Assembly: GCA_902384585.1 (NCBI GenBank)
Contig: CABMCJ010000004.1
Span: forward strand, 572,086 to 636,085
DNA from: Candidatus Anstonella stagnisolia
Lineage (GTDB): Archaea; Micrarchaeota; Micrarchaeia; Anstonellales; Anstonellaceae
Direction: 5' to 3'
DNA: 64,000 nt
Made by a program: the position numbers and the translations under genes. The notes under the pieces were generated by a model. It made no database searches. It had not been told where the DNA came from and saw only the letters and a list, made by a program, of their open reading frames with translations. The number at the start of each line of letters is the position of its first letter. The stretch's first letter is position 1. Shown here in pieces: positions 35,864-38,245 of this stretch.

Positions 35864-36204
35864 GGAGTGGCGGGGGAGCGACTAACCGGCCTTAAATGGT
35901 ACGGAGGAAGTTCTGCCCACCGATGAATTTGCGCGCCTTATAAAAAGGGCGCGGCTTAGAAGCCCCGAAGCGCTTAAGGCGCAATCGGAAACAGAAACGA
36001 TACCTGCCCCCTTTGATGAGGATGAGGAAACGCACTAAAATGCGCGACGAGAGAAGGGAGGCTTGCTGAAACGGTCCGTGCGGGCAATCGCGAAAGCGGC
36101 TCTGCTGCATGAAAATGCAGGGGGCAAAATGTGCGGTGCAAGGCTTTATGCCGCTCAGTCCAATGTCGCTTAGAAACAGAAGGCAGGCTACCACCTGCCA
36201 CTCC
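35864..36204 (+). ncRNA. rnpB: RNase P RNA
   Basis: This is the catalytic RNA that trims 5' leaders from pre-tRNAs. Direct signs: the 5' end GGAGTGGCGGG pairs with 3' CCTGCCACTCC to make helix P1. The first conserved region GGAGGAAGTTCTGCC (35903-35917) and the last one ACAGAAGGCAGGCTA (about 36176-36190) form helix P4. In P4, AG/CT and TCTGCC/GGCAGG pair around a single bulged U, which is the universal P4 bulge. The internal GATGAGGAAACG segment also fits an RNase P specificity region. The length of about 341 nt is normal for an archaeal type A RNA. There is no credible protein gene here, and a TATA box is correctly placed upstream. The exact ends are estimated from P1. Confidence 0.93.
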
Positions 36205-37366: not shown

Positions 37367-37375
37367 TTTTTTATA
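37367..37375 (+). promoter_or_regulatory. TATA box of tRNA-Arg and the overlapping protein gene
   Basis: TTTTTTATA lies 24-32 bp upstream of the first tRNA base (37399). The next protein gene starts inside the tRNA gene, so this box is probably its promoter too. Confidence 0.65.
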
Positions 37376-37398: not shown

Positions 37399-37497
37399 GG
37401 GCCCGTGGCGCAACGGATAGCGCGTCTGGCTTCGGACCAGAAGGTTGCGGGTTCGAAGGAGAGTTTTGATGCTCTTGCGAAAATCCCGTCGGGCCCG
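37399..37497 (+). tRNA. tRNA-Arg(UCG) with a 26-nt T-loop intron
   Basis: All tRNA arms are present. The acceptor GGGCCCG/CGGGCCC has discriminator G, the D stem is GCGC/GCGC, and the anticodon arm TCTGG-CTTCGGA-CCAGA reads anticodon UCG. The variable loop is AGGTT and the T stem is GCGGG/CCCGT. The T-loop is interrupted: 37458-37483 is extra. Around it, TTCG (37452-37455) pairs with CGAA (37478-37481), giving a 4-bp helix with a 3-nt bulge AAG on one side and AAT on the other, the archaeal bulge-helix-bulge. Cutting after the second base of each bulge leaves the perfect loop TTCGAAT, between tRNA positions 59 and 60. The intron's inner hairpin (GAGAG/CTCTT) has one extra unpaired G, so the motif is slightly relaxed. 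CCA is not encoded. Confidence 0.9.
37456..37463 (+). promoter_or_regulatory. Shine-Dalgarno sequence inside a tRNA gene
   Basis: AAGGAGAG spans the 5' exon-intron junction of tRNA-Arg and lies about 6 nt before the ATG at 37469. It is a strong ribosome binding site, so it argues that the ATG within the tRNA intron is the real start of the following gene. Confidence 0.6.
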
Positions 37498-38245
37498 TTT
37501 GCTTTTTTTGCTGCTGTTTTTGTGCGCAAGCGCGCACGCTGGAAAACTTCTTGTGAGCAATGCGACCATTGGGGAAAAGATATACGTACTGTATGAGGGG
37601 GAAATGCTGCAAAATGAAAGCGTATTTGTGAAGCCGCCGCACGGGACTGGAGTTGGAATTGCGCTTTGGGGAAACGCTGCGGAATTCAATGCAAGCGAAG
37701 AGGGAACGTGGAAAATAGTTTTTCGCGGGGAAGAATACGCCGCGCTTGTTTTTGGGGGGAAGGGGGAGGAAATTGCGCCTGTGAAAAACCAGTGGCAAGG
37801 CGGGATTGTGCCGCTTTTGTTCATGCTGCTTGTGTTTGCGTGCGTATTCGCATTTGCGGCTGCCGTGTGGAAAAACGCAGGGAAAACGGAAATGGAATTC
37901 TACGCGGAAAACAACAGGCTTGTGCTAAGGAGCGTGCATGCGCTTGAGGAACCCGCCATATCGGATGCAGATGGGAAAATGCTGTGGGCTGCAAAAGAAT
38001 TTGACAGGGCTGGAAAGCTTGAGATAAGCCTTCTGGAAATGAAAACGCCGTTTTGCCTGAGGGCGAGGATGCACGGTGGGGATATTTGCATGTGGACAGA
38101 CGGGAGGATGGGTGAGAGGGCGCCTGCTGCAAAAATGCGCGCGGCTGAAAAAGAAGGGCGGGATGCGGGCGCTATTGAAGGCGCAAAAAATGCAGGTGAA
38201 GCGAAGAAAAAATTGAACAGGGCGGAGCCTGGATTTACTTCGTGA
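37469..38245 (+). CDS. Secreted/membrane-anchored protein whose start lies in a tRNA intron
   Basis: This 258-residue protein has a clear signal peptide: basic MLLRKSRRAR, then a leucine-rich core and CASAHA before the likely cleavage. An outer domain of about 85 residues follows, then a membrane helix at about residues 111-135 and a cytoplasmic domain ending in a charged Ala/Lys-rich tail. The ATG and the first five codons are in the intron of tRNA-Arg, and codons 6 to 10 (SRRAR) are read from its T stem and acceptor stem. Downstream TTG codons could start the hydrophobic core but would lose the basic region, so the ATG with its GGAG site is preferred. It overlaps the convergent map gene by 11 nt. 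No family is recognised. Confidence 0.8.
   Translation: MLLRKSRRARLLFLLLFLCASAHAGKLLVSNATIGEKIYVLYEGEMLQNESVFVKPPHGTGVGIALWGNAAEFNASEEGTWKIVFRGEEYAALVFGGKGEEIAPVKNQWQGGIVPLLFMLLVFACVFAFAAAVWKNAGKTEMEFYAENNRLVLRSVHALEEPAISDADGKMLWAAKEFDRAGKLEISLLEMKTPFCLRARMHGGDICMWTDGRMGERAPAAKMRAAEKEGRDAGAIEGAKNAGEAKKKLNRAEPGFTS

Follow-up and report, generated by a model that had tools for sequence, protein, structure and literature searches.

A micrarchaeote tRNA-Arg gene with a candidate start codon of the following protein gene in its T-loop intron

Can one stretch of RNA be read both as a tRNA and as the codons of a protein, and if so, how would a single transcript serve both genes? The question is raised by a locus of Candidatus Anstonella stagnisolia, a micrarchaeote, that lies in a 64,000-nucleotide stretch of DNA, here called the window. 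A sequence-only reading of the window had noticed a tRNA-Arg gene with an intron in its T-loop and, inside that intron, the ATG of a signal-peptide protein, and had proposed that splicing removes the start codon from the message, such that one transcript yields either tRNA or protein. We examined the gene, its intron and the candidate starts of the protein in the window and in related genomes (Table 1).

Table 1. Features of the tRNA-Arg(UCG) locus in the window
Feature	Position	Strand	Basis or remark
TATA-like box TTTTTTATA	37367..37375	+	by eye, about 26 nt upstream of the tRNA
tRNA-Arg(UCG) exon 1 (positions 1-59)	37399..37457	+	Rfam; ARAGORN on spliced sequence
Central splice helix, 5' strand TTCG	37452..37455	+	fold; pairs with 37478-37481
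AGGAG, Shine-Dalgarno-like	37457..37461	+	ends 7 nt before ATG 37469
26-nt T-loop intron (59/60)	37458..37483	+	fold; ARAGORN on spliced sequence
258-aa protein gene	37469..38245	+	open frame from ATG 37469
ATG, proposed start codon in intron	37469..37471	+	in frame with the ORF ending at 38245
Central splice helix, 3' strand CGAA	37478..37481	+	fold
tRNA exon 2 (position 60 to N73)	37484..37497	+	sequence; shared with protein codons 6-9 (SRRA) and with two bases of codon 10
TTG, alternative start, 1 nt past the tRNA 3' end	37499..37501	+	start-codon survey
T7 run, possible tRNA terminator	37503..37509	+	sequence; within signal-peptide codons

The tRNA gene is a tRNA-Arg(UCG) spanning 37399-37497, its T-loop being interrupted at 59/60 by the 26-nt intron. 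Rfam recognizes a tRNA with a truncated T-arm at 37399-37455 (35.4 bits, gathering threshold 29), and ARAGORN calls no tRNA on the unspliced 37399-37497. Once 37458-37483 are removed, the remaining 73-mer is called as tRNA-Arg(tcg) and folds into a cloverleaf with anticodon TCG and all stems intact, which bears out the proposal that the tRNA is complete only without these 26 nt, ends included. Among the 30 loci examined (of 31 tRNA hits in the genome) no second tcg tRNA was found; one may have been missed, given a genome completeness of 89% and several isotypes without a hit.

To place the locus among its relatives, an alignment of 14 members of the protein family was searched against the order, matching 53 of 84 genomes at an E value of 0.001 (many of the matches weak and partial), and 26 family loci from these 53 genomes were read in detail. 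Of the 26, 17 have a tRNA-Arg(UCG) immediately before the protein gene and in the same orientation. A dedicated tRNA finder that recovers all 17 of these controls finds no tRNA-Arg(tcg) at the other nine (G003, G004, G010, G012, G014, G022, G023, G028 and G030); in G028 another GGGCCCG tRNA-like gene stands about 0.7 kb upstream. The genes for KsgA, a 120-aa protein and methionine aminopeptidase swap side and orientation around the tRNA and the protein gene, and the pair is kept. A class-wide search matched 37 of 301 genomes, 11 of them outside the order, and the three of these 11 that were inspected (G085, G086 and G293) have no such tRNA within about 0.8-0.9 kb upstream. A scan of genome contigs for KsgA gave no new pair among L114-L124 (from the best 80 of 550 loci), nine of which are identical to family loci already read.

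T-loop introns occur in eight of the 17 syntenic genomes, all at the same site, with lengths of 26 nt in the window, 16 in G002, 34 in G008, 41 in G005, 43 in G017 (ends ambiguous by one base), 47 in G029, 57 in G015 and 72 in G019. ARAGORN misses all eight of these genes unspliced, so such loci are easily overlooked; after splicing, all 17 sequences are called tRNA-Arg(tcg). That the 26 nt are an insertion, and the tRNA a pseudogene recruited as the 5' region of the protein gene, would fit the failure of ARAGORN on the unspliced window sequence, but the intact stems, the uniform identity of the spliced tRNAs, the want of another tcg copy among the loci examined and the shared intron site all speak against it, and we regard it as highly improbable.

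In the minimum-energy fold of the unspliced RNA (-45 kcal/mol, equalled by 2 of 200 shuffles), the T-stem is followed by a bulge AAG, a 4-bp helix TTCG/CGAA, a bulge AAT and an inner hairpin GAGAGU/GCUCUU. The flanks had been described as a 4-bp helix with two 3-nt bulges; the helix is there, while an extra unpaired G (37477) turns the first bulge into a 3x1 internal loop. The structure is therefore a relaxed bulge-helix-bulge (BHB), with a 4-bp helix and a splice-site bulge on either side, and falls outside the strict form, which has a 3-nt bulge at each end of the 4-bp helix. Judged by eye across the eight genomes with T-loop introns, the pair at position 57 is G-C in three, A-U in three and fails in G005 and G029, and the central helix is kept in six of the eight. 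Folds of single sequences contain this helix fully or partly in the window, G005 and G015, and in G008 in the centroid; it is absent from those of G002, G017, G019 and G029.

The genome encodes a 393-aa splicing endonuclease of the ARMAN-2-like epsilon-2 type, which aligns from end to end with ARMAN-2 EndA (4fz2; residues 1-393 with 1-387, E 2.7e-128), and this enzyme would be the one expected to remove the intron from the window tRNA. Beside it there is a second, shorter PF01974 endonuclease-like match (L082, G000:C4:793539-793772). In its relaxed fold and its pairing with an epsilon-2 enzyme, a loop of which is reported to accommodate noncanonical bulges (PMC12397907), and in its position, 59/60 being among the archaeal tRNA intron sites listed in PMC4090602, the intron resembles the noncanonical BHB/hBH introns of archaeal tRNAs. 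It differs from them in carrying the start codon of the next gene and a ribosome-site-like sequence.

The protein gene begins with MLLRKSRRARLLFLLLFLCASAHAG, and ATG 37469 is the only early ATG of its ORF. The placing of a candidate signal-peptide start and a ribosome-site-like sequence in the intron stands, the frame being open to 38245 and AGGAG lying 7 nt upstream of the ATG. When the intron is shuffled, an in-frame open ATG arises in 16% of cases, and an ATG with a Shine-Dalgarno (SD) match of at least 5 nt at a distance of 4-10 nt in 0.86%. SD matches were scored against an anti-SD sequence that we take to be the organism's own; it is not readable from the assembly because the 16S gene (L080, G000:C2:234892-235984), a 16S rRNA matched in pieces, is cut by the end of contig C2. 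Use of SD sequences in the window is patchy, with matches of at least 5 nt at 6 of the 74 candidate ATGs that lie within the first 12% of the ORFs, as against 11 of 283 late internal ATGs, and in the fold the SD and AUG are partly buried in the intron hairpin. Of the basic residues of MLLRKSRRAR, all of which had been assigned to the 3' half of the tRNA, R7 and R8 are indeed encoded by exon 2, R4 and K5 belong to the intron, and the R10 codon lies partly inside and partly beyond the tRNA. The protein probably opens with a signal peptide, followed by a segment that relatives conserve, another hydrophobic stretch and a C-terminal portion that is DUF11-like in one relative (Pfam, 1 of 14 family members, a weak match at E 0.00068). 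The window protein itself matches nothing in Pfam (cut-off 0.01) or NCBIfam (cut-off 0.1), and homology searches of genome contigs and viral contigs with it gave no match.

Where the protein starts in the relatives was surveyed at the 17 syntenic loci by counting the offsets of ATG, GTG and TTG from N73. All usable starts lie inside the tRNA in two loci, starts inside and at the edge compete in three (the window included), and a sufficient ATG lies downstream in 12. The overlap of tRNA and start recurs but is not conserved, and the expectation that relatives would share it fails for most of the set. The two inside-only loci are G017, where one ATG coincides with the 5' splice site (-58) and another belongs to the T-loop intron (-46), and G015, whose T-loop intron holds GTG at -66 and TTG at -30, with others further in, and where TTG at +18 would leave no signal peptide; each comes from a single metagenome assembly, in which a sequencing indel is possible. 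The competing starts are ATG -28 or TTG +2 in the window, TTG -55 or +11 in G013 and, in G001, GTG at 0 or an ATG at -66 that belongs to an anticodon intron. The sufficient downstream ATGs stand at +4 (G011), +5 (G002), +13 or +28 (G008), +23 (G018), +25 (G009), +28 (G034), +30 (G005, with TTG at +3, and G020), +32 (G031), +37 (G019), +44 (G029) and +122 (G016), and those of G019 and G008 give signal peptides without basic residues before the core. The clade forms a graded series from separate through abutting to overlapping genes. In G017 the acceptor pair 5-68 is kept by a compensatory change from C-G to U-A, which leaves the amino acid of the overlapping codon unaltered (CGG to CGA, both Arg).

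In two of the downstream loci the ATG abuts the tRNA, following it by 3 nt in G011 and 4 nt in G002. This spacing is too short for an SD outside the tRNA and favours for these loci a route through tRNase Z. The same route has been considered for the window: TTG 37499, which would still keep the hydrophobic core, may be the start, a tRNase Z cut after 37497 freeing a nearly leaderless mRNA (1-nt leader), so that each transcript gives both products and the ATG and SD of the intron are coincidental. An in-frame open start at offset 0-5 from N73 is found in 7 of 17 loci as against 3 of 17 in another frame, a weak excess (binomial 0.02, with G029, in frame and stopped before the gene, counted in neither class), and, judged by eye, TATA-like boxes precede the starts of several window genes by about 20 nt, as in leaderless genes. 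UUG, however, is a poor leaderless start, five of the seven edge starts are TTG or GTG, and TTG is likely to occur by chance in T-rich trailers; moreover, tRNase Z would cut through the GTG of G001, and G017 and G015 have no start at the tRNA edge. We consider a start at TTG 37499 possible but rather unlikely. The abutting loci suggest that leaderless archaeal messages might arise by cutting at tRNA 3' ends, and nothing on tRNA-derived leaderless messages was found in the parts of the literature searched.

How the protein would be transcribed is suggested by the sequence before the tRNA. By eye, an AT-rich TATA-like box stands roughly 25-35 nt before the tRNA in 15 of the 17 syntenic loci, the exceptions being G009, where the tRNA is preceded by N, and G020, where it is preceded by another tRNA. 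As no promoter-like box was noticed by eye inside the tRNA, expression of the protein probably depends on the tRNA promoter or on read-through from upstream; a scan for sigma-70 promoters and terminators, which does not fit archaea, returned none. From the box and the kept linkage we infer a single co-transcribed unit driven by the tRNA promoter. In the window and in G001 a T7 or T8 run falls within the signal-peptide codons and may be where many transcripts end, which suggests that termination may set the balance between tRNA and protein.

Our preferred explanation, to which we give a somewhat better than even chance, is that tRNA and protein form one co-transcribed unit, that the start in the window lies in the T-loop intron, and that maturation and ribosome loading compete for each molecule. 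The RNA would fold, and the epsilon-2 splicing endonuclease, tRNase Z or both would cut it, giving the tRNA at the cost of the start codon; or a ribosome would load first on the AGGAG-AUG of an unprocessed read-through transcript, giving the protein. If ATG 37469 is the start, a molecule might be translated first and matured later but not the reverse, and it follows from the anatomy that an RNA gives no protein after maturing. The tRNA, the intron with its splice-like fold, the open frame, the endonuclease gene and the recurrent pairing argue for this explanation, as do the rarity of an ATG plus SD among shuffled introns, the lack of a second tcg copy among the tRNA loci examined and the compensatory change in G017, and G017 and G015, with starts only inside the tRNA, favour competition between splicing and ribosome for those loci. 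The downstream ATGs of 12 of 17 loci, the alternative at TTG 37499, the patchy SD use, the buried SD-AUG, the T7 run and the differing register count against it. Splicing, initiation at ATG 37469, transcription past the T-run and the resulting competition are predictions from the sequence.

The same anatomy is compatible with neutral overlap, which differs on regulation only: in a compact genome whose tRNA introns turn over, the start may have drifted into the tRNA, the protein being made by rare read-through and no switch existing. N73 falls on codon position 2 in the window, G017 and G013 and on position 1 in G001 and G015, intron presence and length vary, and overlaps are scattered on a KsgA tree of 12 rows, which is mostly unresolved: firm support for two of its nine inner branches is too little for a count of independent overlaps. 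The frame also holds starts inside the tRNA in six of the 12 downstream-ATG loci (G011, G008, G009, G034, G031 and G019), so that such openness alone proves little and is evidently common by chance. Against neutral overlap, the pair is kept across rearrangements; we put its chance a little short of even.

The proposal of either tRNA or protein accordingly survives in part. The start in the intron and the overlaps of G017 and G015 speak for it; the lack of conservation speaks against it, as does TTG 37499, which could make both products compatible. That splicing removes the start codon agrees with the geometry of ATG 37469, but a tRNase Z cut alone would also remove it, and the T7 run may partition transcripts before splicing does. 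A splicing-gated switch, in which tRNA-Arg introns of several micrarchaeotes have taken in the start of an envelope protein and the speed of folding, splicing and 3' cutting against ribosome loading would decide the outcome for each molecule, seems improbable to us; if it existed, protein output would report tRNA-processing capacity. Should the overlap be used as proposed, one RNA stretch would have to serve as tRNA and as coding sequence alike, and a mature tRNA and a message would be mutually exclusive.

Coding sequences in archaeal introns are familiar from ORFs such as those of homing endonucleases; the window ORF shares this location, but starts in the intron, runs through exon 2 and past the tRNA, and encodes a signal-peptide protein. 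In dicistronic tRNA-mRNA transcripts and tRNA punctuation, a tRNA and an mRNA share one transcript and tRNA ends define mRNA ends. The proposed shared transcript resembles these, except that its start codon lies within the tRNA and maturation would cut the coding sequence. A search of titles and abstract beginnings, mostly without subscription journals, found no report of a start codon in a tRNA intron. The arrangement is thus one of known parts, absent from the literature found, recurrent and not conserved.

Elsewhere in the same genome, a frame on the same strand runs across the tRNA 3' end and at least 100 codons beyond it in 7 of 29 other tRNA loci (L001, L010, L012, L017, L020, L026 and L029), these frames being candidate genes. 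The first start after the tRNA lies at +9 to +27 in six (L010, L012, L017, L020, L026 and L029) and at +121 in one; L012 has an in-frame GTG inside the tRNA plus an ATG after it, and only tRNA-Arg has an ATG inside. The frame after tRNA-Pro (L017) is tRNA-dihydrouridine synthase-like by eye. A repeat of TAGACRAA and a GC-rich hairpin directly follows the tRNA in 6 of the 30 loci examined (L004, L007, L018, L019, L021 and L027) and may be a terminator family or a mobile repeat; TAGACAAAC has no occurrence in the window. An archaeal RNase P RNA lies at 35866-36202 on the plus strand (RF00373, 87.2 bits, just above the gathering threshold of 84).
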